Part shown: positions 4,026 through 62,703 of the stretch, piece after piece
Position numbering within the stretch: the first letter of the stretch is position 1
Layout of the letters: each line of letters opens with the position of its first letter
Program-made: the position numbers and the translations under genes
Source: Apostichopus japonicus
Lineage: Eukaryota > Echinodermata > Holothuroidea > Aspidochirotida > Stichopodidae
DNA: 64,000 nt
Assembly (NCBI RefSeq): GCF_037975245.1
Contig: NC_092575.1
Location: 2,797,001-2,861,000, forward strand
Direction of reading: 5' to 3'
The notes under the pieces: model-generated
Seen by the model: only the letters and a program-made list of their open reading frames with translations
Told to the model about the DNA's origin: nothing
Database searches by the model: none

Positions 4026-4402
4026 TTAAAGGCATTGAAGACTCGCCCCAAACCTTGTGCGGCCATCTGAGAAAGTTAACTTTCCGTTGCTTGCAAGTGA
4101 CGTTTTGTTCGTGTCGCTACAAAATGCAGACAGTACAGTAATGAAACGTGATACCGTGTTATCTGTAGCTGGACCTGAGATGTCCATCGCTGTATTGTTT
4201 GTACACTGTGCTGTGGGTATTGACCGCATTTGTATGTACTGACTGTACACTAGTGTCTAATTACCGATGGTAGCAAGATGTGTGTGTGTGTATTTTCTGG
4301 CATCGATGGTGGTGTCTAACACTTCTGTTCCACCTCATTCGAATCTAGGTCAGATTACCGGCATTAGACGTTTCTTTTTGCGCGAGTCTTCACACCCTTT
4401 AA
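4026..4402 (+). mobile_element. TTAA-flanked MITE, copy 1
   Basis: A non-coding element bounded by TTAA on both sides (4026-4029 and 4399-4402). Its ends are imperfect inverted repeats: the left begins AGGCATTGAAGACTCGC and the right, read on the other strand, begins AGGGTGTGAAGACTCGC. Two further copies lie in opposite orientation at 40759-41123 and 51640-51975. Shared interior blocks include GTGTCTAATTACC, the start of a TG run, and CGTTTCTTT near the right end. A TTAA duplication is the signature of piggyBac-type transposases, so this is probably a non-autonomous piggyBac-like MITE; no transposase is seen. It sits 22 bp after the septin stop codon, so it probably lies inside that gene's 3' UTR. 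Confidence 0.8.
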
Positions 4403-24427: not shown

Positions 24428-27400
24428 ATGGCCATGAAACCTGCCGAGAACCTTAAAAGTTTTGCCTACCATCGACCTCCATTTATTATTTTCTTGGTGT
24501 GTATTCTTCTGTTTGCTGTTGCCCTGATATCGCTGGGCATCTACATACAAAACCACGATGTCAGAAACTATGAAGATAAGGTAAATTTGCGTTTCCCATC
24601 TTTTTCTTGCCCCTCTTACTAGACGGTTTTCCACAGGGGTGCATCTTCTTCTTGTTTAAATCTCAAAGTAAACGACTTGAAGCCGGATTTTATCTCACAT
24701 TGACGTTTTCAATGAATCACTCTCAGTGATTTTATCGGATTGAAAACTTGCATAAATTTTTCATTGCAAAGGATATTCTCACGTTAGTAGTTCTCATGTA
24801 AAATGTATACATTGTACAAAATGTGTGTAATTTATTTTTTATTTTCTACATCATTTCATATGAAAACTTGAGAAGTGAAGTTTAATATTGTTATTGGACT
24901 TAATGTGTAGGAAAGCAAAAATATACTTTAGGACATGTCTAATAAAACTAAAGACATTGGTAATTTCGAATTACTGCATTTGGCATTGCACTATACCTCA
25001 CACTTACTGCTTCTCCCCCCACCCCCCCCCTTTGCCCTCTATCCTTTCCTACCTTCTGACCATAAGCCATCTATCTAATATTGTACATGGTATTTTACAA
25101 TGAAAGACATGATTTTAACATTAAATTCTTATTCCATGTGAACTTTGACCTTTCACCTACAGGATTGGAATGATTTCTTTGAGGATTTTTCACAACAGCA
25201 GTTCTGCATCCCGCTGAAAGATGGAATTCAGCGGAGGGAGGCCCCATTAAACGCTCTGGGTTCTACAACCCAGGAATCAATAACCGACTCCTTCAATCTC
25301 AACAGCAACGTATCGTTCTCCGTCAACTTGGAGTTACATCTGGCTGACAGCTCAATGTTGCAGCAATTAGTCGGTCTGACCAGTCTCAGCAGTACTGTTC
25401 CAGCTATCCAGATTAAGCTGAATAAAAGTGAGTGATCTGCATCACTGACATTTGAAAATTAAACAATTGAGCGAGATGGCACAGACATGTATCAGGGACT
25501 TAGAACTTAACTAAAATATTAATCATTGGGGACCAAGGGACTCCTCCTTCTTCTTATCATTCCCATCACCACATGATGTGTTAAGATGAACATTCACTTG
25601 TGATGGTTCTGAGTTTGGATAATTTAAGTCAAAAGGTCTGTCGGCCAAACTGCCTTGGAATGTTCATAAAGATAACTGTCCAATCAGAAGGGGATGCTGC
25701 TGTTATCGATCCTATGAGAAGAAACTTTCCCAGGCATGTCACGTCCAGTTTACATGAAGTCACATCATTATTTTCTATTGATACCGCCACCTCTCACCCA
25801 AACCCCCCCCCCCCCACTTTCCCATCTCCGATGCCTCCATAAAAAAGAAAGAACAATCCATGTTGTTAAGTTTGGTAAACACTTGTTTACAATACTCATA
25901 CTAGCATTTCTCACAAAGGATGTGATCATTGCTTTATATCCAGTAAGTTGGCAAGTGAGTTTCATAGTAATAGTGAGTCCCTAAAAGCTATGTACATCTT
26001 CAATGAATATTTACATGTAAATCTGCAGTTACGTATCCACATGTATCTCCTTGGGCAACTGCAAAGCTGGGTCCTTGAGATTATCCATTTCTCTCTCCGA
26101 TTTTTCAGAATACGATGAAGTCGATATGACATTTCATTTGACTCAACCCATTGAACTCCCAAGCTGTGAAGGGAAAACATGCAGTCCCTCCAAAGTGGCT
26201 GCTTGCGTGACTTTGGGAGTCACACAAAAGGCACTACCGCCCATCACTCACGCTGTGTAAGAACCAATCAAGTTGTTCTCTTTCTTTCTTGTCAAAGCCA
26301 AATTAAAATGTAGCCAAATCTTATGCATGATAACATTAGTACAGTTTATGAAAAAAAATTAGTCAGCCTGGACGACAGAAATTTTAATATGAGGCTAAGC
26401 AAGAGTGTATACAATCTGGGAACATGCAGAATGGCTTGTGCTTTATCCTTCTAGTCCATTGGTGACCTTATGAAAAGGGATATCGAAACCTCCGAAAAAT
26501 ATATCTATTATAGAACTTGTGAAATGAACCACAGTGGTCCAACACTGCCTACAGTCATAGAATGTTTCGTTGTTAAGATATAAAATGTTGCAGTTTAAAC
26601 CAAGTATCCGGACAACTATATTTCATAGTTGTCTTTGATGTCAAATTCATATACAATTTTTTTTTTACAGTTCTGTGCCAAATGTTTTTTATGTAGCTGG
26701 CTGCCTTTCATATCCATGTTCCATTTTTTCACCAGCAGTATTTATCTAAAGGAGTGCAAAAAACAACATGTAGCTACAATTCCTACAACCCAAAGTGTAA
26801 AGAAGTGTAAAGAAGAAGAGTTGTTGACCCTTGTTGTGAACCTTTGGTAGGGCCAAGGCTAGGTTTGGTTTAAAACCTGACGGTGATTGACCAATGTTGT
26901 TGGTGTCCGTTCAGTTACTGTGTAGCACTCAAAGCACTGATACAGTTATGGCATCTGTTGATAATAGACGACAACATAGACTGGTCTCGAGAAGTCAGAT
27001 GGCTCATTAGCATATCAATTTCAGATATTTTGATCTGTAGTACTTGAAGGAAAGTCGTCGCAACTATTGCTGGTAGCGTACTGTGCCTTGAAGTGCCTTG
27101 AGCTCTAGAACAAATGCCATCAGATGATAAAAAAGATTAGACAACAGGTTCAACCTGGCACTGATATCAATTACTAATTTTCTGAAATTTTCATCCCGGT
27201 CTATTCAAGGCCATTTGTTGAACCTGTTGCTGGTACTTGTTTTCAGTTCAATGATTTTGGCCATGTTGAGAATCCAGATATGATGCAGTGTATTCCTATG
27301 AAGCTTGTTTTGACCTTGTCCCGATCGGTCCAGGCTGTGAATTATCTTCCAAAAAAATTTCTGCTCTACAACTTACCAAAATTAAATTTTGGGTCTAAAG

Positions 27401-37600: not shown

Positions 37601-40600
37601 TACTTCCCTTCATTATTGGAAATGAGCCTGGACTCTTGAGATATGAAGCACTGGTATAGAATTTTGTATAAAATGATACATGAAACAAATAAAATTGTGT
37701 GTATTCATATAATACATGAACTGTATCTTGCTGTATATCTCATTAGTCAAAGTTGAGGTACTTTTTCAGAGTTGAAGTAAATGTCCATTTCTTGTGTATA
37801 TAGATGTATGTAAAGTAGATAGACAGGTGATTAATACAAGCAATTAACAAAGTACAGAGAAATGCATGTCTTACATGCAAGGCGTATGTTACCCGTGTTG
37901 AAAAAGCCTTGCTGTGATGTCTTGTCTTATAATTGTACTTTTGCAAATAAATATCCTTCTTTTGTTTGATATGTTTGAAAGTTCAAGGTAAAATAAATGT
38001 TTTTCACTTTTCTGTATTGCATCACTATTTTTTGTCTTGTTGAAGGGAGAAATGTTTATCGACCACGATAAGAACAGCTTTGGAACATTTGAATTGATTC
38101 ACGCCAACTGTAAATTTCAAATGGTTCCAAGACAAAATACAGTATGGCTAGAAAAGCATGCAACTATGATTCAGAATACAATTCAATTACTTTGTAAAAG
38201 CATGATAAGTTATATATCCTAGCATGGATTAATCAATCCTGTATTGCATGACAAACTTGCTATGCAAAATGGGCACACTGCTACATAGCAGTGCAAAGAT
38301 GTAGTTGTTGCTGTACACAGAAACCATAGAGTTTTATAATAGATGAAGTTCAGATCATTCCAAACTGCTACCCAGAATGTTATCACTAAGTCATTCCCTG
38401 AATCGAAGTGCTCTGTCTGCATTTGACTTCCTTCAATGTTAATCGTACAAGCAGCTACATTCATTGCACAGAAAGTACATAGATTGTTATCAAGTTTGAA
38501 TTCATGTTATCTGCAGACATCATGTTATCTGCAGAGTAATATATCAGTCAGTAAATGCAGGAAACCTGTATTTCCTCAGGCTCACAGTGACATTGCTAAG
38601 GTATGGAAGGCTAAATATTCCTGTACAATACTGCTTTTCATTTCCTTCTACGAAGGAAAGATACGTTACCCAGGAAGTATATAGCATAGATTGTTATCGC
38701 TATCGCTAATACTCTCTGGGGTTTGTAATATGCAGTTTTATAATAACACACTGGATCAACACAAGCGTCCCGAAAGATGCTTAGCTTGTTAAATGACACT
38801 AAGCAATCATTTATACGATGTGGGAATAAGAGTGGCTTGCAATATTCACTGCTTCTTACACCGTATGTATCCTTTAGGGCTTTGTGTCAAACAGACATGC
38901 TACAAAAGTCTGCTCAGTTAGAATGAATCAATATCAAATGATAGGGATTATCTCCTCGGATCCTACAGATCCTACAAGATTCACGATACTCACATCTTAC
39001 AAGATGAAATGATAGGTATTATCTCCTCAGACCCTACTGTGCCTTTTGTGTAAAACTATGCACAGCGCAGAGGATTATGTGAGCTGGCTATAAGAGGCTG
39101 TAGCCCCCTCAGCTTCCTACATTTGACATGGTACCTTATTCACGATACGCTATCACATCTTACAAGATGAAATGATAGAGATTATCTCCTCAGATCCTAC
39201 TGTGCCTTTTTGTGTAAAACTATACACAGCACAGGATTTTGTGAGCTGGCTATAAGAGGCTGCAGCCCCCTCAGCTTCCTGCAATTGACATGGTACCTTA
39301 TTCACGATACTCTATCACATCTTACAAGATGAAATGAGCAAAAACAGCATTGACTGGAACAGGATTCAAACCAGCAACCTTTGGAATTCATGTCTTGTGC
39401 TCTACCAACAGCCCTAAGTTGGTGAAAACTTCTATTAAACAACTCTTTACTGGGAGTGCCAGACACATTACAATAAAATGTACCTTGCATAATATGCAGT
39501 TTCATCTAATACAATACTGAAAGCAGCTGGGATGAGATTTCAGAGAGAATATAAGTAATTTAGTTTTAGTGATGGCAAGAAAGTAACACATTGACTTTGT
39601 GAAGATTCTCAAGATTTCTCACATATGAGACCTTTGACATGGTATTATGAATGCCCTAAAACTTATCATTTCTTGCAAATGGAGGGAGGGGGGGGGGGGA
39701 TATCACCTCAGTCCCATTTACTAATACCTCTGCACTGACTTCTACTGTTATCAGTGACATACAGCCAGTTGTATAACCACTCACTACATTGGAAAGTTAA
39801 GTGGAGCTGGCTGTTTTAAGTGAGATCCCTGAGTCATTGACTCTAGTAACTGGTTATTTCCACAGAATATCACCTCAGTCCCATTTACTAATACCTCTGC
39901 ACTGACTTCTACTGTTATCAGTGACATACAGCCAGTTGTATAACCACTCACTACATTTAAAAGTTAAGTGGAGCTGGCTGTTGCATATCCCTGAGTCATT
40001 GACTCTAGTAACTGTTCATTTCAACAGCGGAAAAGTATACACACCTGTTGTTTACACACCTGGAGTCACTTGACCTTTGAACTCTGTGACTCCAGTCAAA
40101 AACCCATTACAGCACGGCATACAACTGCTTTCATCAAACCCAAGATGAAGTAAATAAATCAAGGTTTTTTTATTACAAACCTAACATCAAACTGTTCTTT
40201 AATTAGGACACCTTTTGATAGTAAATTTTTTGATTACCTATACTTCTATATACTGTACTGTAACTAATCAGATGAATAGCACAGATCAGAAATTCTCAGA
40301 ACTTTTTAACTCTCTATGGCTAGTCAAGCTAATGAAACACATTTTTTTTATGGGCCATTAACTTTCCATCTCTTCTTTAGCTCATCCAAAATGGTTTTAA
40401 CATTTAAACAACATCGCTATCAGCGGCTGCTATGAGACCTCAGATTTCATCTCATTGAGATAACATGTAAGCTTATTAATGACGGAGAACTAATTGGGAA
40501 ATTATAAACAGGTCTGAAAAGAGCAGAAAAATTCTTTGCTCTTTTCAAGTGTGTTTACAATCCAATTGTTCATTTGTTTACATATACGAATAAAAGTCAT

Positions 40601-43600
40601 AATGTCCTATCAAAGCCCATCCACTTTCTGGGTCATATCAAACGAATATTGGTGTTGGATCCCTGGTCAGGGCAAATAGCTTACAAAGTATACAAATAAA
40701 CCTCACAAAGTTGCGGTGAATGGTTCAAAGCAAGTTCTAGCCCAACATTTCAGACACGTTAAAGGGTGTGAAGACTCGCGCACAAAGAAACATCTAATGC
40801 AGGTATTCTGACCTAGTTTCGAACAAGGTGTAACAGAAGTGTTAAACACCACCATCGATCTCAGAAAATACACACACAGCTTGCTACTGTCAGTAATTAG
40901 ACACTAGTGTACAGTCAATACATACAGCTAAGGTCAATACCCACAACACAGTGTACATACCAGAGATGGACATCTCAGGTCTAGATAAAAGATAACAAGG
41001 TATCACGTTTCATTACTGTCTGCATTTTGTAGCGACAAGAAAAAAACTTCACTTGCAAGCGACGGAAAGTTAACTTTTCTAGAGCGCGGCACGTGGTTTC
41101 GGGCGACTCTTTTAAGCCTTTAAGGTAGTGTTAGTTGGTGAGATTTATGTCAGAAGCTCATTTCTTTTACTTTTTGTGATTATTAAAATATATTATTAGA
41201 TTATGATCTAACCGTTCATATCCTGTAAGTGAGAGTGAAAATCCCAACTGGTATGAAGGTTAATTTTCAAACTAAAATTTAGCAAAAAATTGAGTTGTTT
41301 TTTTTGGCTTTCTTTTTTCCCCCTGTACAGTTAAGGATGAGAATGTCAGAGGTGGATTTCAACTATGCTTCCTCGATAACGGGGAAGGAATGAGCCCCGG
41401 TAAGTCCTAATGGAGTTGTTCAATGTTTCGGTATAGAGTTAGAGATGTAGAAACTTGACCCTGTATCATCAATACTTCAAAATGACTTGACAGTACAAAT
41501 TATTTCATTCCATGTTGATAAACTTTGTGCATGATTTTAGTTTAAAAAGGAACACTTTCCATTTGCCATCAGTAAGATGTGTTCAGTATCCTAACGTTAT
41601 TGGATGGGATAAATTCACAGTCATATGACAACAAAGGTGAACCGTGAGAGGTAAAAGCCAACTTATAAAAAAATGAAAACAGGTTTCTTGTCTGAATTAT
41701 TTTCAATAATGGAGGCGGCTTACTTTCCCCCCCCCCCCCTTTTTTATCTTTGTGAAGAGTATCACTATTCTGCACAGAGTACTACAGTGTTTTTCGTTTG
41801 TGAGTAAAATCCACACATGGGGCAGTTCTGTTCTGAGGTGATTCGCTCAAGTAATGCTCAAAGGATTTCAAATCAATTTTTTTTTGGGGGGGGGGGAGAG
41901 GTGGTGGAGATGGGGACAAAATAACAAATTTATAATCAATATATATATATTCCTTAATCAGACAATCCTTGTATCACATGACACAGCAATGCAAGCAGCT
42001 TGATACGTATTCTTCTTGCACTCTATTAACAGGAAAAGCTAGCTCTGTCATTCTGTTCGGTGAATCTTCAAAAAGAGGCACAGAGGGCCAATACATAGGG
42101 CAGTATGGAAATGGCCTAAAATCGTAAGTACTCATTCACATATTGCATTGTTCTATATATTGAGGGGTTGGAGGGGGTAGGGCGAGGCAGGGGGTTGAGA
42201 AGGGGTGTGACCATTTTCAACTCCAGAATGCTATTTTAGGTGGGTACCACTTTCCCTGTACTGATTTGTGTTTCTCTATTGGGGAGGATATTTTTGGGGG
42301 TGTCGGGGGGGGGGCACTTTTCGGTTTTGAGAAATGAGAAGGTTTATAAAATATCATTTGAGGTATACATACCTTCTTGAGCACTTTAGGCACCTTCATG
42401 TTATGCTATGCAATTAATTAATAATTAAATTTTTAGTGGGTAATTCTCTCATGTGAGAGCTAAATGAGTTTATAGATTGAGATGCAACTTTTATCTCCTA
42501 AATTTTTTTAATTTTTTTTTATGTCAATGTTAACTTTCCAGCGGTGCTATGAGAGTCGGTCGTGATTTCATCCTCTTCACCAAACAAGGCCAGACGATGA
42601 CTTGTATCATGATGTCAAGAACCTTCCTGGAGGAAGAACAGATCAAAGAGGTCATCGTACCCATGCCATCCTTTGATTCCAGAAATCAGAGACCATTAGC
42701 CAAGACAGCAGAGGAGAAAGCAAGGGTGTGTAGTACATGGTGTAACAAAAGAATATGGTTTGGGGATGGATGTGTGGTGGTTGGTGGGGGGGGGAGGGGA
42801 GGGTGGGTGTGTGTGTGAATGGTTTCTGCCTTAATGAAATTACTGCATACTGTGCCCTAGCCAGAGACCATGAGAGGGGTAAATATAATTCTGTGTAGTT
42901 ACAGTGCAACGCAAAATGGGTCAATCGCAGAAGTCACAGTATGCCATCATTTCTCATGAAACCAATACCAACCAAACTGCTGAGAGGAGAAAGTGAATGT
43001 CTTGAACGATAATTAAAGGGGTTGATAGAGGAGTACAAGAGTATTCTCCATGCCTAACTTGTGGTTATCTCAAGCTGCACTTTCATTTACCTACTCCCCT
43101 ACCCAAACTCAAAACAGTCACTGGTATAGCTGCTAGGGTACCATTTCTGTGAACTCAAAACAGTCACTGGTATAGCTGCTAGTGTACCATTTCTGTGAAC
43201 TCAAAGCAGTCACTGGTGTAGCTGCTAGTGTACCATTTCTGTGTACCCAAAACAGTCACTGGTAAAGCTGCTAGTGTACCATTTCTGTGTACTTAATAAG
43301 AGTTTTCACTTCCCTGTCGGTTGTTCTTTAATTTCCATTTTAATCAAGGTAATTACATGCTGGCAATTACATGAAATAAAATTGCTTCAATGAAAGAGAA
43401 AGTAGAATGGTTTTTATAACTCATTCTTGTTAAATAAGTGTCCTTTTCTCCTTTCCTTTGTTGTTATTGCAGCACCAAGTGGAGATGGAAGTCATATACA
43501 GGTATTCACCTTTCAATAACGACGACGACTTTTTCGAGCAGTTTCAAAGAATAAGGACCAATTCGGGTGAGTTCCTAAGTTCATTAAAGTCTTGATGTTT

Positions 43601-49600: not shown

Positions 49601-52600
49601 AGAATTACACACTGTATTAAACATCTTTTGTAAGAAGATAAAAGATAATACTTCAACAGTCAGGTCCATTAGAGTCACAAAGTCTGCTAACATCTAGTCA
49701 TTGGCCTAATGAGTGGTAGTACTCGATAACAATGACATCTGCTGGTCAGAGTTTTATACGCAGAGTATACTAAAACAAGACAATGGAAAATCAGCTATGA
49801 ATGCTGCATCATAGACGCAGGCTAACCATTGTTAAACAGTCTGTGAAATGAAACGATGCATTGAATCGCAACTCAACATATGCCGTGAGACAGATCCAGC
49901 AAACAATTATGATAGATTGTGTAAGTGGCGGCTGTATATGGCTAGAGGAGAGGTCACGGGTCACTGCGTTAAAAGCTTGAGTCATGACACAATTCATTGA
50001 TTGGTCCCTGTGGAGATCCTTTGATCGATCAATAAAATTTGTCTTACAAAAGTGAAGATCATACATATATTTAGATTATGTATAAAATATCTGATTAATA
50101 TATGTTTTGTTTGGAAACAAAATCTAGCAAGATATTTTTCTCTCTTCTCTCTTAGATAACTGCCTGAAGTGGCGGATTCTTCCGTTCTCAAACAGCCATG
50201 TTGGGCATCACTTTGATTATTGGGAGTGCAGTATGAACACCGTTGCAAGTCACAAAAGGTTAAATAACTATTTTACATACATTTCCCGAGGGAATGGGGG
50301 CTTCGCAAGAAGCATACACGATAGTGACAGTATCAAAGAAATTAGTATCTTTTGTCTTTTCGATGTCAGAGTTGTTTGCAACTGACAGGAGAACAGAGTA
50401 AAGATTGTTGAGTTGAAGACATTGCATTATGTTACCATAGAGTTAAATTTGTAGAACCACAATAAAAAAAATCATGAATAAGAAAAAAAGCTACCTGGAT
50501 TAGAAAGATAGACACGAATGATCGTCTTTCATGAGAAATCCAGAAAGCTGTGGTTTGAATCATGAGTCCCGAATCATGGTTTGAAGAAGCTGTGTGCATT
50601 GTATTGCTAACATTTCACAAGAATAGTAACCTTCCTGATAGATCCATTCCTCTCTTTGTTGATGCATTTAAACCTTGTCTATATATATCAAGTTATCAAC
50701 TGGGACGTTACTGTTAAAGCGGGGACCTCTTTGCAAACACTGTGCGATGGTCTGAGATGACCCAATGCCAATGTCGGACGACCAAAGCCTGTGATTTCAT
50801 GAAGGATAAACAATAGGTCAGATGCGTTATTATTTGTCAAAAGGGGATCGGACAATATACCTTTCCGGTTACTGTTGATATGAGCTGAATTGAAACTCCC
50901 AGGTCATTGGTGGGAGGGGATGAGGAGAAGGGGGGGGGGTAGTAGGTGAAGGTTAGAAGGCAGTGGGCTAAACGTTTGAAAAGAATCCCCACGTGGATGA
51001 TATCATCAGTTTTTGTTGCCTCTATCGAATGTGTTTCTCCGAGCTTCATCTTAATGTGTCCTTTGTATCGACAGTTGTAATGTCCCAGAGCAGAAGATGA
51101 ACATTCCATGCAAAGTACTTAAGAAAGAAACCAAGTCTGACGAGCTGAAGAAACAGAAGTTGGAAGCTGTAAGTTCCGCCATCATTCCTTCAATAAACCG
51201 CCGATGTTATACCATTCCTGGTATCTATCAGAGTGCAGAACGAAAAAAATCAGTTTTTTGGGGAGAGTGCATATCCCAATCAAGCACCAATCTCTCCCTC
51301 CATGAATCATTGGTATTAATATATGTCCCCGGTATTTTATCAAAGAATTAGTAGGGATCTTTTATTACTGGACAGTACCCATTCCAGCATGCACAAATCT
51401 TCACCTCACCAAATTGAGTCCAGGAAAACTTTGAAATTTGGTATTAAAGGACCCTGAACTCGACTGACACAGGAAGTTTTCACATCAAAGGTTTTGGGAC
51501 AGAAACCTTCCAGTGTTGGATAAACTGTTGATAGGGATGCCTCTTAGGAACAGACAATTTGTTGTAAAACCACATTGATTGATTTCTTACACTTAGATGC
51601 AGCCAACTATGTATTACTGTTTTACAAAGCTGGGTCACTTTAAAGGGTGTGAAGACTTGCGCACAAAGAAACATCTCATGCCGGTAATCTGAACTAGTTT
51701 CGAATGAGGTGTAACAGAAGTGTCAGACACCACCATCGATCCCAGAAAATACACACACAGCTTGCTACCGTTGGTAATTAGACACTAGTGTACAGTCAAT
51801 ACCTACAGCTACTGTCAATACCCACAACACAGTGTACATAGCAGCGATGGACATCTCAGGTCTAGATAATAGATAACAAGGTATCACGTTTCATTACTGT
51901 CTGCATTTTGTAGCGACAAGAAGAAAACTTAACTTTTTCGGCACGCTGTTTGGGGCGGGTCTTCAATGCCTTTAATACAAATATGCTACCTAACACACTC
52001 CTATAAGACACTGCATGATAAAGAAAATAAGAAGCTGCTGCAAATCCTGCAGTACATATTGTGTGAACTGTAGAAACACAACCAATTTTGTCCCACAAAG
52101 CCTGGCTGTAGGGTGCTGCAACACCTCCCCCCCCCCCCCGGGTGTCCTGTATTTGACATGGTGCCCTAAGTGAATACAATTTTCATCTTTCTTTATTTAT
52201 CTCTTTTTTCCTTCTCCTTTTTTTCATTAACAGGAGATACGAAGAAAGCAAGAAATGTTGAGTAAGATGCAGCCAGAATCTGTGAGTATAAATTGTTTCA
52301 AATGATGATGCATTTATAATTAATAATAAATAAGTTAAGATGCTCCAAAAAAGTGGATAGATTTAGTGCTTTCCATTCCAAACAGCAGGTATACCACAGG
52401 ATCATTGAGAGGTTACAAGTGATTAGTAAATACGATATTAAACAATATTCACTGTAAACACTAGGTTTCTGTTTACTTGTATTCCTAGCCTAATAGACTC
52501 ATTAACTTTAATGACCGTAAGGAACGATTGTTAAAGCTTTCTCAAGCAACATTTATTTATATTTATATATATTTTTTTCCCCTTACTGCTTAAAATATTC

Positions 52601-55600: not shown

Positions 55601-58600
55601 GAACCAGAAGGGGCAGTGTCCAAAGATGTTGATTCCTCATTGGATGATAAAACCACTGCAGCAGAGGCGGGAGATTCGACCTCGGAGATGGAACAGTCCG
55701 ACCAGCCGCCGGAAGTCGGCATTGATAGTAAGTGTCAACTTAGGGACAGCTGACCGGAAATTGTCGGTGTGAAATTATTGGTGACAGAAGGGGAAAAAAG
55801 AGCAACATGAAAAGATTTTGTCGAGGAAGAATACCATTAAAATTAACTTACTTAATTAATTTTGGTAGCATAGTAATTTGTGTAGGAGATGGTCTTGGTC
55901 TTCTCCTTCATCTTCTTTTCCTTCTTCTCCTCCTCCTCCTTCTCTTCCTCCTCATTCTTCTTTTTCTTCTTCTTTTGCTGCTTCTTGTTACAAACACTGC
56001 CAAATTCGATTTGATCCCTGTGAATTGATTTTAAGAAGGAAAATACTTAATGTATAATAGTTGTATAAGGTATAGTCTAATTTACCTTAAAAACTGTCTA
56101 TCAATTCTTCTGAGCTTTCTCACTTACACATTGATATGCTGGTTGTGTCAGTAAAAAAAATTGAATAAGTGTTGAGGGAATTGATATTACTAACTCTGAG
56201 AAGATGTGGAGGGGGAGGGAAGGGGGGCTCAAATGGAGGTGTTTGTTGATAACTATTTGATCTCGTTTTGATGTTTCTTTGCAGTGTTTGGTGAAAAAGT
56301 GGAGGCTTACATCAACGGAAGGTGGAATCCGGGAGTAGTAGTCAAAGTGAAGAAGAAGACTATGTCTTCAGGAGAGAGGTGGAGGGTGAAATTTGACAGA
56401 AATAGACAAGACAGGTTTGATAAATGGTAAGCTTGTGTTGAGCTAGCAGACGGATATTGCATTGGCTTTGGATTATCACATTGTCATTGTGTTAACTTAT
56501 ATTGTCATATCAGCTTTCTATTGCCATTGTGTTGCATTACGTTGTCACATTGTCCTGTATTACACTGTCATACAGACCTTGTCTTGTCATTGTGTTGCAT
56601 TACATTGTCACATTGTCCTGTATTACACTCTCATACAGACATTACCTTGTCTTTTCATTGTGTTGCATTGGATTGTTATATAGTCCTGTATTGCACTGTC
56701 ATACAGACATTACCTTGTCTTGTCATTGTGTTGCATTGGATTGTCATATTGTCCTGTATGCACTGTCATACAGACATTACCTTGTCCTGTCATTGTGTTG
56801 CATTGGATTGTCATATTGTCCTGTATTGCACTGTCATGACATTACCTTGTCTTGTCATTGTGTTGCATTAAATTGTCATATTGTCCTGTATTGCAGTGTC
56901 ATTACCTTGTCCTGTCATTGTGTTGCATTGGATTGTCATATTGTCCTGTATTGCACTGTCATACAGACATTACCTTGTCTTGTCATTGTGTTGCATTAAA
57001 TTGTCATATTGTCCTGTATTACAGTGTCATTACCTTGTCCTGTCATTGTGTTGCATTGGATTGTCATATTGTCCTGTATTGCACTGTCATGCAGACATTA
57101 CCTTGTCTTGTCATTGTGTTGCATTAAATTGTCATATTGTCCTGTATTGCAGTGTCATTACCTTGTCCTGTCATTGTGTTGCATTGGATTGTCATATTGT
57201 CCTGTATTGCACTGTCATACAGACATTACCTTGTCTTGTCATTGTGTTGCATTAAATTGTCATATTGTCCTGTATTGCAGTGTCATTACCTTGTCCTGTC
57301 ATTGTGTTGCATTGGATTGTCATATTGTCCTGTATTGCACTGTCATGCAGACATTACCTTGTCTTGTCATTGTGTTGCATTAAATTGTCATATTGTCCTG
57401 TATTGCAGTGTCATTACCTTGTCCTGTCATTGTGTTGCATTGGATTGTCATATTGTCCTGTATTGCACTGTCATGCAGACATTACCTTGTCTTGTCATTG
57501 TGTTGCATTACATTGTCATATTGTCCTGTATTACACTGTCATGCATACATTTCATTATATTGTCTGTGTATTACATTACATTGTCAAATTTGTTTTAAAT
57601 AACTTCAGATAACAACATTAAATGAAGAGAACCATTGATTTTGACCTAATGAAAATTATATATATCAGTACTTTTAGTTGATTGATCATCATTTTAATAT
57701 GTCATTTGGCAAAATGAAAAATATTTATTTTGCATTTCTCAATATCAACAGGTACGACAACGATAGCAAAGAGCTTAGGTTACCACCTAAGGTGAGTCAT
57801 TGCTAAATGATTTGATCATAGTAGCTCTTACGTTTTGTTTTATTAAAGCATCAGAATCAAATTATATATACGTTTTGTATTTGGTGACAAAGAACTCCAG
57901 CAATGGTTAGCAGTTGCATCACCTATGACGTGACCAGTTTTATTCAACAGACTGTTTTATCCATTGGTAGGAAAGCCTTACAATAATAACCACATTTGCA
58001 TGACGTCTCCAACTTGATGTCATTAATATTCATCAAATTGCAAGAAATGGCTTTCATTTTGGTGTGCAAATGTTCATGGATATTAACATGTATTGCTTAC
58101 CCAGACTATGAATATGATCGGGCACTGAAAACCACTAAACGTTTTATGGTTATTTTATGATGTACTTTAGGATCCAGAGGTGGAGGGTCTACCGATTGAT
58201 ATCTTAGAAGACGGTGTTCGAAAGATTAAAGCAACTAAAGAAGCATTGATACCGCAGGAGACATCAAACATTGATGCTCCATCCTCGGCATCCACTGATG
58301 GGGCATTAGCTTCTCTCCCGACGAATACCTCCGAGCCTAAGACCAACAAAGCCAAGCCTACAGAGAGTATCAAGCCCATGCAGAGGGAGACTCCGGCCAC
58401 GATACCAACCAAAGATGGAGATGGTGAATCGAGCCTTGCGATCGACGAAGCACCGAAACAGGAGAACAAGGAGGAGGAGGAGGAGCAGAAGAAAGCAGAG
58501 ACGGATCAATCGAAGGACAGCAAGGATGAGGAGAGATTGCGGGAGGAACAGAAGGAGATGAAAGCCAGGATAGAGGCATTAGAAAAGGAGAACAAGGATC

Positions 58601-61600
58601 TGCTGGAAGAGCAAGGAAGAAACAAGGAGACGTTGGAGAAGAGTAAGAAGGAGGATGAGAAAAAGAAGCTGACCTTAAACAGCCTCTGCGACGGATACAG
58701 GTAAGAGTTGGATACGGTAATGAAACAAATATAGATATATATATCATGTGGGGAAGATAAGTTTCTTATTTGTAGGACTTGCTGTACATATATTTGTATT
58801 ACTGTATGTGTATTGCAGTCTATTGATACTAATACTACTGTTTTTGTCTTTTGTCGTTTATGACCTGTGTAAGCCGAATTTCCGATTGAGATCAATAAAT
58901 TCAATTCAATCAATCAATTCAATGTATAGAGCTCATGTGATGATCTCGTCCGTCGTGGGCTTAGAAAAGGCACCGGAGGGGTAGAATTGGACAAAACTCA
59001 CGAGCAAAGTGAAAGTATGCACCACTAATAATAACAAGTCTGTCTGGTACAAGTTACTATGACAACCTACATGAAACAACCAATCATGTGCAGCCAAAAT
59101 TCTCTAGTGGTCTCTCCCTATATCCACACCAATAGCAAACTTTGGTCACCCTCTATTTCAATGGATCAAACCATCTAACTAATTCCTGTCTGCACCAGGT
59201 AATGCCTGCCCTGTAATCTCACAGTATGGATCTACCATTTTCCACAGGCTACACCATAGTCGTAATGCATGCGAGTTGTGTATAGCCTATAGTGTAGAGC
59301 AGGGGTGAGCAAACTTTTTGAATGAATGGGCCAGATATAAGGGGAGAAAAATTGACTGGGCCGCACCTAACCAACGACCTGCTGTTGATTTCAAACCTTT
59401 GATTCCGAGGACTTTCAAGCAATACTTAATCTGTATTCACAAAAACATAATGTCAACACAGTACAGTTGATAATTAATGGGGATAATAGGCCTACCTGAG
59501 AGCATCATTAGTGCCGATAAATTCTAAGCAGCAAGCTCGTTTTGTGTGATGATGTAAAATAGATAGATTTTTGTTCTTTTTCTTGAGACATCGCAAGGGC
59601 CGCAACAAAAAATTACTGACGGGCCGCAAGTGGCCCGCGGGCCGTAAATTGCCCACCCCTGGTGTAGAGGGTATATAAATGATACATAAAAAGCTACTTG
59701 CATTGAGAACTGCTAAAGGTGTCTCCAATTATCTCTACGGAAAGTTACCGTAAACAACTTACAGAAATACATTACTGAGCTCCTCTGTCTATTACAGATA
59801 AGAGTGGTTTGTCAAATTAAGTACAAAGAACAGACCTGTCAGGTGGCTAAAAACTTTAGCCACTGCATGAAAGGCAAATAAATAGGCAGCAGTGCTTTTA
59901 ATTATTCTCTTTGAGTTCATAACACTACCTGTGTCTGATACATTTTCATGGTGTTAAACAGCTTTTCCACTACAACAAAAGACTTTGCAGCCTTTTAAAC
60001 TGGAAGTTAAGTGTGGTTCTGATTCTTTTTATAGTCTCTGATGTGTTCAGACTCAATCTATTTCGAGAAAGAGAGGTGCTGAATAGATGTTCCACGACGG
60101 CATTACTGAGAGGGATAGAGAAGAAGGATAAGGCATGCATTGAGAGTTCACGGAATTTCTTGTTCCCTGCACACTATGAATATGTTTAAGGCATCGTAAC
60201 TTCGTAACCACTTAACTTTTTTCATTTTCTCTTCAGGAAATGTCTGAGGTACTTCCTCCCTCCATCTTGGCATATGACCAAGACGCAAGTTGGGAAGTTA
60301 ACCCCTGAAGAGCTAGTGACCTTTGACCTGAACGGAGTCTTTGAACATTACGAGAAAAATTTGAGAGAGGTGAGGGATTTTTTTTCCTTTTCATACTGTC
60401 TGTCATTTCTGTAGCACTTAAAAAAAAATTATCAAATCTATCAGAAAATGTTGTTTTTTGTTTATGTAAATAATCAGAGACTTGAAAGCTGGAATTCAGC
60501 ACATCTGTTTTACCGGGTGAAGAGGCAGCTTTATTCTGGATTTAATCAAGTGACCTTATCATGTAGTGATGGCAACGGGAGCTGGGAAACCTTGACAAGC
60601 TCACAGTACATTTTGACTGGTACGCTGGTGCATGATGAAAGTATACCAGCATGGTGGTTGTATCGAGATTGCGTAGCACGCGTCAGTCCAATACTACCCA
60701 CAAGTTCTCTCTTCAGTTTAAGGCTTTCTTCAGTGTGTACGTAATGCTATTGCCAGACTGTAATAATTCCTATACCAGTTAAGAAGTAGTAGTGCAACCA
60801 CAGTAGTCATGTGCCGGCCTTTCAGTGTCGGCAGTTATGAGTTTACTTTGTCTATTGTGAACAGATAGCCTTTGTGTCCATATGCAAAGAGTTGCTATTC
60901 AGGGGTCAGAAACCAAATTCATATTGGTGCATTGAACTGTATGATAAACCTTTGTGCTCAAGAAGTCTCTGTGCAAACAGAACTGATGTTGTTTAGATTA
61001 ATACCATGTCTTTGTGCAAAGTTACAATCATTTTTCATGGTTATGAACCGAGGGGTCGGGCACAGGATTGCCAAAAAATGATTGTATCTATTTTTATGCT
61101 GTCTGAGCAGTTGAGTGATACAGTGAACGATCAGGTTTGAAATTTGAATTCTCGTTTTGCTAGCTCGTCGGTGGTTATCATACCAGAGCGGAGAATAAAG
61201 AACAGGAGGCCAAAGAAATGGAAGAGAAACTGCACAACGTCAGACGGATGGTAGCCCAACTCCTGAGGACCATGACTGACACTCAGGTAATGTCAGGGAG
61301 ATGCTATGTTGAAGGGTCGAGGAGTGGGGGGTAGGAGGGGGGAGGAGGGGGAGGAGGAGGAGGAGGCCAAGGAGATGGAAGAGAAACTGCACAATGTCAG
61401 ACGGATGGTAGCTCAACTCCTAAGGACGATGACTGACACTCAGGTAATGTCAGGCAGATGCTATGTTGAAGGGTGGAGGAGGAGGGGTGGAGAAGGAAGG
61501 GGTTGGAGGAGGGGGGGTAGGAGGATGGGGAGGAGGAGGAGGCCAAGGAGATGGAAGAAAAACTGCACAATGTCAGACGGATGGTAGCCCAACTCCTGAG

Positions 61601-62703
61601 GACGATGACTGACACTCAGGTATTGTCAGGCAGATGCTATGTTGAAGGGTGGAGGAGGAGGGGTGGAGAAGGAAGGGGTTGGAGGAGGGGGGGAGGAGGA
61701 GGCCAAGGAGATGGAAGAGAAACTGCACAACGTTTCGTTTCGTTTATTCCAGTATAAATTGCATAAAATACAGTTCATAAATAGGAAAATGGTGAGTATA
61801 ATAAATAAAATGTTATGTGCATTCATAAAATGTATAAAAGTTAGGAAACAGTAACCCAATTAGGGAATAAAAATTGTGGAAACTATACAAATTACATCAA
61901 ATCAAGTCATTTAAAGTGTCATGTTGAATAAAAATAGATGCTCTGTAAAAAAACGAGTTTCTGAAAACTTGCACTCTATATGTTGGTGTCAATGCACGAT
62001 TCCTGAGATTATAGCTAGTGTGTCGACACAGTGATTTCAGTTCTGCATGAAGCGGGTGATTTTCTTCTCTTTGAATATTCCTGCTTAGTCTGATAAATTC
62101 ACGCCTAGCTCCACCATTGACCTGATCAAAAACGTCAGACGGATAGTAGCTCAACTCCTAAGGACGATGACTGACACTCAAATAATGTCGGGCAGATGCT
62201 ATGTTGAAGGGTGGAGGAGGGGGGAGGAGGAGGGGTGGAGGAGGAGGGGGGAGGGGAACTGCATTTATGTCCTCTTTCCATCCATATTTGAGAGGTTGGC
62301 TACATCTATGGTACCCATTCTTAAACTTGAGAGAAAGAGTGGGCATGAGGAGGAGGGGGGGTGGGGAGAGTGAGGTAGGAGCATGACAGTGTACCTATAT
62401 TGATATAGGAACCAGATGTGGATTGCAGTCATTGGATTAATCTGACAACCCTATCCCCAATAAGAGCCACCCCCCCCGGTCCTCCAGGCCTAACAAAATA
62501 GTCTGTGAAAGGCTTTCTAGTTTCAGGATTCCACGTCGTTGGAATTTATGGAAAGGTGAAAGTTTTAATTTTGTGTGGGAAGCCTTCAATTTGTCTTGTG
62601 TTCTTTCTTTCAGGACGATCTCTTGCCAGAGAACCAGGAAGGAGACGAAGTGGATGAAATTCTTGCCGTTTGTCTGAAAGAAGCGACCCAAAGCTCACAG
62701 TGA
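34689..62703 (+). CDS. MORC2: MORC2, GHKL ATPase and CW-type zinc finger chromatin protein
   Basis: Complete 28-exon model, 3405 nt, 1134 residues. Exons: 34689-34756, 36089-36142, 36462-36496, 41331-41399, 42033-42123, 42542-42725, 43473-43566, 44448-44571, 45104-45232, 45507-45586, 46167-46249, 47200-47426, 48366-48520, 49120-49248, 50156-50258, 51075-51168, 52234-52281, 52603-52722, 53291-53365, 53979-54074, 54790-54882, 55532-55727, 56285-56426, 57752-57791, 58171-58700, 60237-60369, 61164-61286, 62614-62703. Every intron is GT..AG and every phase closes. The start is fixed by [20 protein letters not shown], which matches the MORC2 N-terminus, followed directly by GTGAGT. MORC2 is a nuclear ATP-dependent dimer that compacts chromatin and works with the HUSH complex in silencing transposons and long intronless genes. 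The protein is about 100 residues longer than the vertebrate form, mostly in the linker and acidic C-terminal region. Introns carry SINE, LINE, hAT and TTAA elements and several tandem arrays. Confidence 0.95.
35427..35780. repeat. Diverged tandem duplication, unit about 230 bp
   Basis: Two related segments start near 35430 and 35661. Both contain CATAATATC, TTAAACAAACA-like and GGAC.AGAGA blocks, followed by similar wording to TTTATC.TTCCATA. They are well diverged and non-coding, within MORC2 intron 1. Confidence 0.6.
38939..39335. repeat. Tandem duplication, unit about 163 bp
   Basis: Units share ATCTCCTCAG (39021 and 39184), TGTAAAACTAT, GAGCTGGCTATAAGAGGCTG, CCCCCTCAGCTTCCT and TCTTACAAGATGAAATGA. 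A shorter partial unit lies upstream at 38939-39006 and another downstream to about 39335, where the tRNA-like sequence begins. It is non-coding, in MORC2 intron 3. Confidence 0.85.
39345..39430 (-). mobile_element. tRNA-like sequence, probable SINE head or tRNA pseudogene
   Basis: On the minus strand: GTTGGTAGAGC (D arm / A box), an anticodon-arm-like AAGACATGAATTCC, then GGTTTGAATCC (T arm / B box). Spacing between boxes fits a tRNA. The acceptor stem ends do not pair and there is no clear 3' terminus, so this is not a working tRNA gene. It differs from the heads at 11650 and 48020, so it comes from a different family. Confidence 0.55.
39699..40030. repeat. Tandem duplication, unit 167 bp
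   Basis: Two nearly identical units start at 39701 and 39868 with TATCACCTCAGTCCC. They share long identical stretches through CATACAGCCAGTTG and the CTGAGTCATTGACTCTAG ending. The second unit has small deletions near its 3' part. It is recent, non-coding and in MORC2 intron 3. Confidence 0.93.
40759..41123 (-). mobile_element. TTAA-flanked MITE, copy 2
   Basis: Reverse orientation relative to copy 1. TTAA at 40759-40762 and 41120-41123. The left end begins AGGGTGTGAAGACTCGC; the right end includes GGCGACTCTT and then CCTTTAA. The interior matches copy 1 read on the other strand, including the GACACTAGTGTACAGTC block. It lies in MORC2 intron 3, 207 bp upstream of exon 4. Confidence 0.85.
43106..43292. 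repeat. 46-bp minisatellite, four copies
   Basis: Units of 46 bp start at 43106, 43152, 43198 and 43244. Each contains CAGTCACTGGT, GCTGCTAG.GTACCATTTC and TGTG, with one to a few substitutions between units. In MORC2 intron 6, about 180 bp before exon 7. Confidence 0.92.
45650..45995. repeat. Polypyrimidine minisatellite
   Basis: About 345 bp that is almost entirely C and T on the MORC2 coding strand, built from variants of CCCCTCCTCTCC and TTGCACTCCCC. It gives long spurious open frames in all three plus frames (119-159 residues of Pro, Leu and Ser). It lies in MORC2 intron 10. Confidence 0.93.
46330..46850 (+). mobile_element. CR1-like LINE 3' fragment, dead
   Basis: Conceptual reading gives [17 protein letters not shown] from 46375, then after a frame change [19 protein letters not shown] from about 46470. 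These are the conserved C-terminal motifs of CR1/Rex-type reverse transcriptases, after the catalytic region. Frame changes and stops break the rest. The 3' end has a short AACTAAACTAAA repeat typical of CR1-like tails. It lies in MORC2 intron 11, same orientation as the gene. Confidence 0.8.
48020..48270 (-). mobile_element. tRNA-derived SINE with (ATAC)n tail
   Basis: On the minus strand the head has an A box TAGCCTAGTGGTTAACG and a B box GGTTCGATTCC, then a body of about 150 bp ending in an (ATAC)n tail (48023-48045 on the plus strand as TATG units). Structure, boxes and simple-repeat tail are those of a full-length SINE. It is in MORC2 intron 12, antisense to the gene, about 95 bp before exon 13. 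Opposite-strand open frames over it are artefacts. Confidence 0.85.
48276..48365. repeat. 21-22-bp minisatellite ending at the MORC2 exon 13 acceptor
   Basis: Units of the type TTCACTGCTATATTCTCTATA occur about four times between 48279 and 48350, and the last unit runs into CTCTTCACTGCAG, the acceptor of exon 13 (exon starts 48366). The array lies directly next to the SINE head at 48270. Its pyrimidine-rich units supply the splice-site polypyrimidine tract. Confidence 0.9.
51640..51975 (-). mobile_element. TTAA-flanked MITE, copy 3
   Basis: TTAA at 51640-51643 and 51972-51975; left end AGGGTGTGAAGACTTGC and right end GGGTCTTCAATGCCT. Same orientation as copy 2 and close to it in sequence through most of its length, with a short deletion near the right end. 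It lies in MORC2 intron 16. Confidence 0.87.
56462..57600. repeat. Satellite array with 128-bp higher-order unit
   Basis: The array is made of two alternating subunits of about 60-68 bp. Both contain TTGTC.TGTCATTGTGTTGCATT and TTGTCATATTGTCCTGTATT; one carries TGCATTAAATTG and the other TGCATTGGATTG. From about 56880 they alternate regularly with a 128-bp period (for example 57009, 57137, 57265, 57393). Units toward the left edge are more diverged and shorter. It fills most of MORC2 intron 23. Open frames of 115-165 residues with repeating Cys, His and Leu come from the repeat. Confidence 0.95.
59300..59661. mobile_element. hAT-type MITE with perfect 8-bp target duplication
   Basis: Ends are CAGGGGTGAGCAAACT and, on the other strand, CAGGGGTGGGCAATTT: terminal inverted repeats of about 16 bp with few mismatches. 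GTGTAGAG flanks both sides (59292-59299 and 59662-59669). Internal GGGCCGC and GGCCCGCGGGCCG near the ends are typical of hAT elements of the Charlie/Tip100 kind across animals. The 362-bp interior has no transposase. It lies in MORC2 intron 25. Confidence 0.92.
61206..62260 (+). repeat. Tandem array of MORC2 exon 27 3' part plus intron start (four copies)
   Basis: The last 81 nt of exon 27 (61206-61286) plus its donor and roughly 80-95 bp of purine-rich intron are repeated at 61363-61443, 61539-61619 and 61699-61733 + 62136-62181. Unit spacing is 157, 176 and 160 bp. Copies 2 and 3 keep an open frame and a GT donor (GTAATG, GTATTG); copy 4 has lost the donor (CAAATAATG) and is split by a LINE insertion. 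None of the extra copies has a pyrimidine tract before it; the preceding sequence is GGA repeats. Use as alternative exons is possible but unproven. Confidence 0.9.
61734..62130 (-). mobile_element. 5'-truncated LINE insertion in exon-27 copy 4
   Basis: A 397-bp insertion flanked by AACGT on both sides (61729-61733 and 62131-62135). Read on the minus strand it starts with [15 protein letters not shown] and continues through [12 protein letters not shown] and [11 protein letters not shown] to a stop at 61897. This resembles the extreme C-terminus of a non-LTR retrotransposon polyprotein. About 160 bp of 3' UTR follow, ending GGAATAAACGAAACGAAACG. Short C-terminal piece, 5' truncation, tail repeat and 5-bp duplication together fit target-primed insertion. 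The clade is uncertain. Confidence 0.75.

Follow-up and report, generated by a model that had tools for sequence, protein, structure and literature searches.

Downstream of a functional coding exon of MORC2 in Apostichopus japonicus, the end of that exon recurs within the intron, and the recurrences differ from it almost only silently. This raises the question of whether the copies serve as exons themselves or leave the transcript together with the intron in which they lie. The window (the whole stretch of DNA that was analysed, 64,000 nt long) had a G+C content of 38.2%. On the evidence set out below, we consider it likely that the array is made of young, unspliced, non-coding partial-exon duplications that were seeded by the functional exon and in part overwritten with its sequence.

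To begin with, the gene bearing the array is MORC2, as judged by protein similarity, since it matched MORC2 over the other MORC proteins. In particular, an exon piece at 42540-42710 matched human MORC2 with an E-value of 5.7e-17, compared to 7e-9 for MORC4 and 4.6e-8 for MORC3, and a separate similarity search matched six MORC2 chains and only MORC2 (best E-value 2.8e-4). Moreover, the protein joined from exon 26, exon 27 and the last exon matched the human MORC2 C-terminus (9kql) with an E-value of 4.5e-10, the three sequences found at E-values up to 0.01 being all MORC2, and exon 27 was aligned with the C-terminal part of human MORC2 in 9cdg up to chain residue 1005. The name exon 27 is a label taken over from an earlier, sequence-only reading of this DNA, and its position is that of the exon before the last coding exon; it is 123 nt long with phase 0 at both ends. 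The host MORC2 gene is apparently intact. A 57-residue MORC2 exon piece gave no family in a Pfam scan, and neither did a 174-residue frame at 58180-58704, for which the PDB had no match at an E-value <0.01 (the best, TNFAIP3-interacting protein 1, reached 0.049). Elsewhere in the window, two exon pieces at 24428-25432 belonged to a transmembrane protein (Pfam TMEM219, PF14940; E-values of 2.2e-12 and 1.9e-7). The coordinates of the array and of the exons around it are collected in Table 1.

Table 1. Features of the exon 27 array and the neighbouring MORC2 exons, in positions of the window (slashes mark the ends of exons or copies)
Feature	Position	Strand	Remarks
MORC2 exon 26 (label of the sequence-only reading)	60237..60369	+	ends HYEKNLRE; acceptor tcttcag, donor GAG/gtgagg
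MORC2 exon 27, penultimate coding exon, functional copy	61164..61286	+	acceptor gttttgctag, donor CAG/gtaatg
Copy 1, the 81-nt tail within exon 27	61206..61286	+	
Intron start and GGA-rich spacer ahead of copy 2	61287..61362	+	a frame continued from exon 27 meets a stop at 61332-61334
Copy 2 of the tail	61363..61443	+	frame intact, donor CAG/gtaatg, no usable acceptor
Copy 3 of the tail	61539..61619	+	frame intact, donor CAG/gtattg, no usable acceptor
Copy 4 of the tail, left part	61699..61733	+	terminates in AACGT
5′-truncated non-LTR retrotransposon (LINE)	61734..62130	-	397 nt, inside copy 4
Copy 4 of the tail, right part	62136..62181	+	Met to Ile; end CAA/ATAATG where others have CAG/GT
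Copy of the intron start and GGA-rich array end	62182..62257	+	
Last MORC2 coding exon	62614..62703	+	29 residues and stop; acceptor ttctttctttcag

The array is located in the last coding intron of MORC2, between exon 27 and the final coding exon. The last 27 codons of exon 27 were found three more times, at the coordinates and in the copy number that the sequence-only reading had given, and copy 4 was split by a LINE and devoid of a donor as it had described. The starting point common to copies 2 to 4 is an AGGAGG, found in exon 27 as CAGGAGGCC, and GGA repeats precede each of them. Open-frame copies within one gene, as looked for in a tandem-duplicated exon, were present in copies 2 and 3, copy 4 being split by the insert. 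The start-to-start spacings were 157, 176 and 160 nt, none of them a multiple of three, and, with these spacings out of frame and a stop at 61332, a fused or extended reading frame was rejected.

The genome assembly that was searched comprises 35 contigs with 671,581,487 bases in total. A search with exon 27 gave five matches at E-values up to 10, all of which fall within the array, exon 27 included, so that another genomic origin of the tail was rejected. When copies 2 and 3 with their spacers were used as the query, at least 92 genome matches were obtained; judged by the query coordinates, those outside the array lay mostly over the GGA spacers, often at positions 183-269 of the query. Short repeat arrays similar to the GGA-rich spacer at 61472-61558 occur on 19 or more of the 35 contigs (at least 92 matches). 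Other repeats were observed in the window as well: a tandem repeat array of about 1.1 kb at 56472-57590, which matches itself at offsets of about 63 and 132 nt and higher; a dispersed repeat, roughly 300-380 nt long and 85-93% alike between its occurrences, at 4026-4402, 40755-41123 and 51636-51935, the first being inverse to the other two; and three more local direct repeats, 88-94% alike, at 38979-39337, 39700-40027 and 43106-43303.

The insert in copy 4 is directly followed by a target duplication of five bases (AACGT, 62131-62135). In the genome search with this insert (103 candidates, 40 scored), 36 of the 40 listed matches, its own included, began at query base 1 or 2 and had varied ends, so that its relatives have their 3′ end in common and differ in their 5′ ends. 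Upstream of the common 3′ end, one relative (L009) carries two reverse-transcriptase-like reading frames with a YADD motif, which we take to be a mark of reverse transcriptase. The 77-residue piece of the insert itself, when scanned against Pfam, matched no family. Thus, upstream frames read as reverse transcriptase, varied 5′ ends and a target site duplication, as used to recognize a non-LTR retrotransposon, were all found. The insert had three private sites in 396 when compared with the seven best-matching of the 40 listed matches, a count biased downward by the choice of the best-matching relatives, and this low number points to a young LINE.

A total of nine out of the 81 tail sites varied, all of them third codon positions, and eight were silent; the only replacement was Met to Ile (ATG to ATA) in copy 4. 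Compared to exon 27, copy 2 differed at six sites and copy 3 at five, every one of them silent. These are the numbers on which the sequence-only reading had built its case. The states of copies 1 to 4, in this order, were AGGG at sites 9 and 12, GGAG at site 21, CTTC at site 33, GGGA at site 45, CTCT at site 51, GAGA at site 60, CGGG at site 66 and GGGA at site 81, with site 45 alone altering the residue, in copy 4. With transition biases from 1 to 6, the binomial probability of at least eight silent sites out of nine ranged from 2.8e-5 to 2.5e-4. Without the three sites private to exon 27 (9, 12 and 66), it was 0.002-0.0078 (at least five out of six), and for the sites private to one of copies 2 to 4 only, 0.11-0.19 (at least two out of three). 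The earlier caution about the exon-27-private sites was thus well placed, since one would expect constraint on exon 27, and the changes in its own history would be silent anyway. The sites private to a single copy among copies 2 to 4 were two silent and one replacement, lying in copy 3 or 4 and none in copy 2, and the changes among these three copies were five silent and one replacement. Furthermore, the adjoining intron varied at 5 out of 34 sites and the first and second codon positions at 0 out of 54 (Fisher 0.007); restricted to copies 2 to 4, the figures were 3 out of 34 and 0 out of 54 (Fisher 0.055). Third positions varied at 9 out of 27 sites versus the 5 out of 34 of the intron (Fisher 0.13). 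Overall, the silent bias across the whole array exceeds chance and is statistically notable, while the evidence of selection specific to copies 2 to 4 is weak. Nine sites are few and were chosen after being seen, which lessens the argument from the silent bias and does not remove it, and some of them may be joint events (9 with 12, 51 with 60, and 81 with the adjacent first intron base).

The relatedness of the copies bears on how many of these differences are independent. Copies 2 and 3 showed one difference in the first 70 sites after the tail, followed by a difference in spacer length, and this near identity indicates a recent duplication. Within the tail they differed at three sites, two of which were sites where copy 3 matches exon 27; for these reasons, the pair carries little independent information on selection. 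Moreover, at site 33 it is copy 4 that has the state of exon 27, with copies 2 and 3 sharing another, and at sites 51 and 60 it is copy 3 that does, with copies 2 and 4 sharing another, a conflict that points either to sequence exchange between exon 27 and the copies or to sites that mutated twice. The sequence-only reading had raised gene conversion as a caution, and the conflict among shared states makes it right as a possibility. Such exchange would have run from the functional exon to the copies. Recent seeding from divergent alleles was also considered and rejected: heterozygosity in A. japonicus has been published as 0.986%, and the available part of the same source also gives a nucleotide diversity of 0.00146 (PMC5437941), from which the diversity was estimated to be too low to yield easily five or six silent differences in about 20 silent sites.

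Splice signals were then compared between the copies and the gene. The pyrimidine fraction at positions -20 to -4 was 0.00 for copy 2, 0.06 for copy 3 and 0.12 for copy 4, compared to 0.94, 0.71, 0.88, 0.65 and 0.71 for five acceptors of the MORC2 gene; for this control, seven AGs were scored and five used, one per exon, and those at 42032 and 42541 were chosen close to where the MORC2 match starts, one as the better of several, so that the control leans to good acceptors. Among the AGs within 60 nt before copies 2, 3 and 4, the fraction never exceeded 0.47, 0.29 and 0.41, respectively. Hence no acceptor-like sequence precedes any copy, a shortcoming against which the sequence-only reading had itself warned. 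Copies 2 and 3 have kept intact donors whereas copy 4 has lost its own, and the acceptor and donor that each copy of a tandem-duplicated exon would have were not found together, with donors in copies 2 and 3 only. With GGA repeats and no pyrimidine tract ahead of the copies, their inclusion in transcripts as 81-nt exons appears very unlikely. The pyrimidine contents of 0% ahead of copy 2 and 6% ahead of copy 3, versus 65-94% for the five acceptors of the gene, give no support to the proposal that they are alternative 81-nt exons altering the length of the coiled coil. If exon 27 instead ran on to the donor of a copy, the stop at 61332 would shorten the protein and not lengthen the coil. As the copies have or had donors and no acceptors, they would be removed with the intron and stay untranslated.

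The silent bias was further explored by simulating array populations of 100 or 60 haplotypes, starting from four identical copies with two to seven copies permitted. Any replacement in the first tail was lethal, silent changes were neutral and the transition bias was 3; several samples were drawn from one run. Considering arrays with 7-11 variable sites, one replacement site at most was found in 0 out of 401 without exchange. When arrays could cross over with one another, the number was 2 out of 1,195, and when the exon 27 tail converted the copies one way, it was 10 out of 1,319. The models without constraint on the extra copies that allow exchange thus gave the silent bias in 12 out of 2,514 arrays, and the highest cells of the neutral models were 1/28 without exchange, 3/212 with crossing over and 3/251 with conversion. 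In contrast, when every copy was constrained, 832 out of 840 arrays reached it. An earlier run with and without crossing over gave 0 out of 3,826 arrays with 8-10 variable sites, the samples not being independent. Exchange alone therefore does not readily account for the silent bias, and the copies may still be under constraint. This outcome is the main result against the reading of the copies as unused. As regards purifying selection on the copies, the silent bias was strong overall, weak at the sites private to copies 2 to 4, and rarely given by neutral simulations. The claim that the copies are or were coding is supported in part, in that the silent bias is real and the constrained simulations fit, and falls short in that acceptors are missing and the evidence from copies 2 to 4 is weak.

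That copies 2 and 3 now serve as 81-nt exons in frame, entered through purine-rich acceptors and adding 27 or 54 residues to the coil, would agree with eight silent sites out of nine, all at third positions, with the far better fit of constrained over neutral copies, with the intact donors of both copies and with the phase 0 of exon 27 at both ends, and an in-frame AG lies just before each GAG start, leaving introns of 76 and 95 nt. It is nevertheless held to be very improbable, considering the missing pyrimidine tract (0 and 6%), the two silent and one replacement changes at sites private to one of copies 2 to 4, and the very recent split of copies 2 and 3 (1 out of 70 sites after the tail), which leaves little time for selection to show between them. 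We would give as little credit to a weak use of copies 2 and 3 through purine-only acceptors, by which transcripts or individuals would differ in the length of the C-terminal MORC2 coil by multiples of 27 residues. Coding in the past would require that the exon was first duplicated whole, acceptor included, and maintained by constraint, and that truncation came later as GGA repeats took the place of the acceptor; such a past would account for the silent-only differences between exon 27 and the copies at sites 9, 12 and 66. However, the changes among copies 2 to 4 (five silent, one replacement) postdate the amplification, the truncated start common to all copies suggests that truncation probably preceded it, and the AGs at up to 60 nt before the copies have no pyrimidine tract like those of the gene's own acceptors, all of which makes this history very unlikely.

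Another possibility is that the CAG/GTAATG copy ends act as dual-specific sites, first as acceptor and then as donor, in a stepwise removal of the intron. The AG/GT at the unit ends is present in copies 1, 2 and 3 and absent from copy 4, and in copies 2 and 3 CAG/GT is kept with CTGAC shortly upstream, presumably a branch-site-like motif. The pyrimidine fraction before the ends of copies 2 and 3 was 0.41, above that at the copy starts, and sites of this kind have been reported in a tandem array, according to the available part of PMC10809524. Yet 0.41 is still weak, the site was lost in copy 4, and stepwise removal would be traceless in the mRNA and would not confine changes to third positions, so that such sites would explain the array with very low probability. 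Finally, a short stretch falsely duplicated in the assembly, or two haplotypes joined, might be suspected of a repetitive array of which one assembly was examined. On the other hand, the copies differ from each other, the insert of copy 4 is absent from the others and, if this is the assembly described in the available part of PMC10344927, its PacBio HiFi reads (mean of 14,729 bases) far exceed the 1-kb array; an artefact is extremely unlikely.

The array is probably best described as unspliced partial-exon duplications, for which the following course may be proposed. The duplicated unit would take in the last part of exon 27, roughly 34 nt from the beginning of the intron, and the GGA-rich spacer, and would have arisen by tandem duplication between the AGGAGG of exon 27 and the intronic GGA repeat through GGA microhomology. 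Further amplification would have followed, with copies 2 and 3 as the most recent. Copy 4 is the most decayed: it has a replacement, has lost its donor and was later split by the LINE. The coding likeness of the copies would be due to their having been copied from a functional coding exon and partly rewritten by exchange, with little time for decay. The confinement of all nine variable sites to third positions is not fully explained by these duplications; the leftover bias most likely comes from small numbers, the choice of the case, or a history of exchange outside the models simulated.

Exons duplicated in tandem and spliced either in a mutually exclusive way or as cassettes are known, for instance in Dscam, as described in the available part of PMC3236188. 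Like such a duplication, the present array consists of tandem copies of one coding segment inside one gene, but it copies only the 3′ part of an exon with its donor and lacks the acceptor, and any splicing into its copies is putative. It also resembles the dual-specific splice site array of polyubiquitin UBC in having tandem units of which copies 1 to 3 end in AG/GT, although, as far as the available text of that work goes, the UBC sites delimit coding monomers, whereas the MORC2 units are separated by intronic GGA-rich spacers and their sites are candidates only (PMC10809524). In potato RdRp, an intron was gained by a tandem duplication across an exon-intron boundary and the new intron was detected, again according to part of the source (PMC4974935). 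There, too, the duplication spans the boundary and brings splice signals along, but it crosses the acceptor side, while the MORC2 array crosses the donor side and its copies lie within an existing intron. As judged by title, the papers found on MORC2 together with echinoderms contained nothing on this array, which is no claim of its absence from print.

If the copies are unused, they would be a cautionary case in which exon fragments that cannot be spliced in show an open frame and silent-only differences, and such fragments might wrongly be taken for functional exons. Should the copies be in use, exons would be entered without a pyrimidine tract, and a repeat array would change the coil length of a chromatin-silencing protein. 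In both cases, the array provides a natural experiment on the transfer of sequence between an exon in use and the copies of it that lie in the intron.
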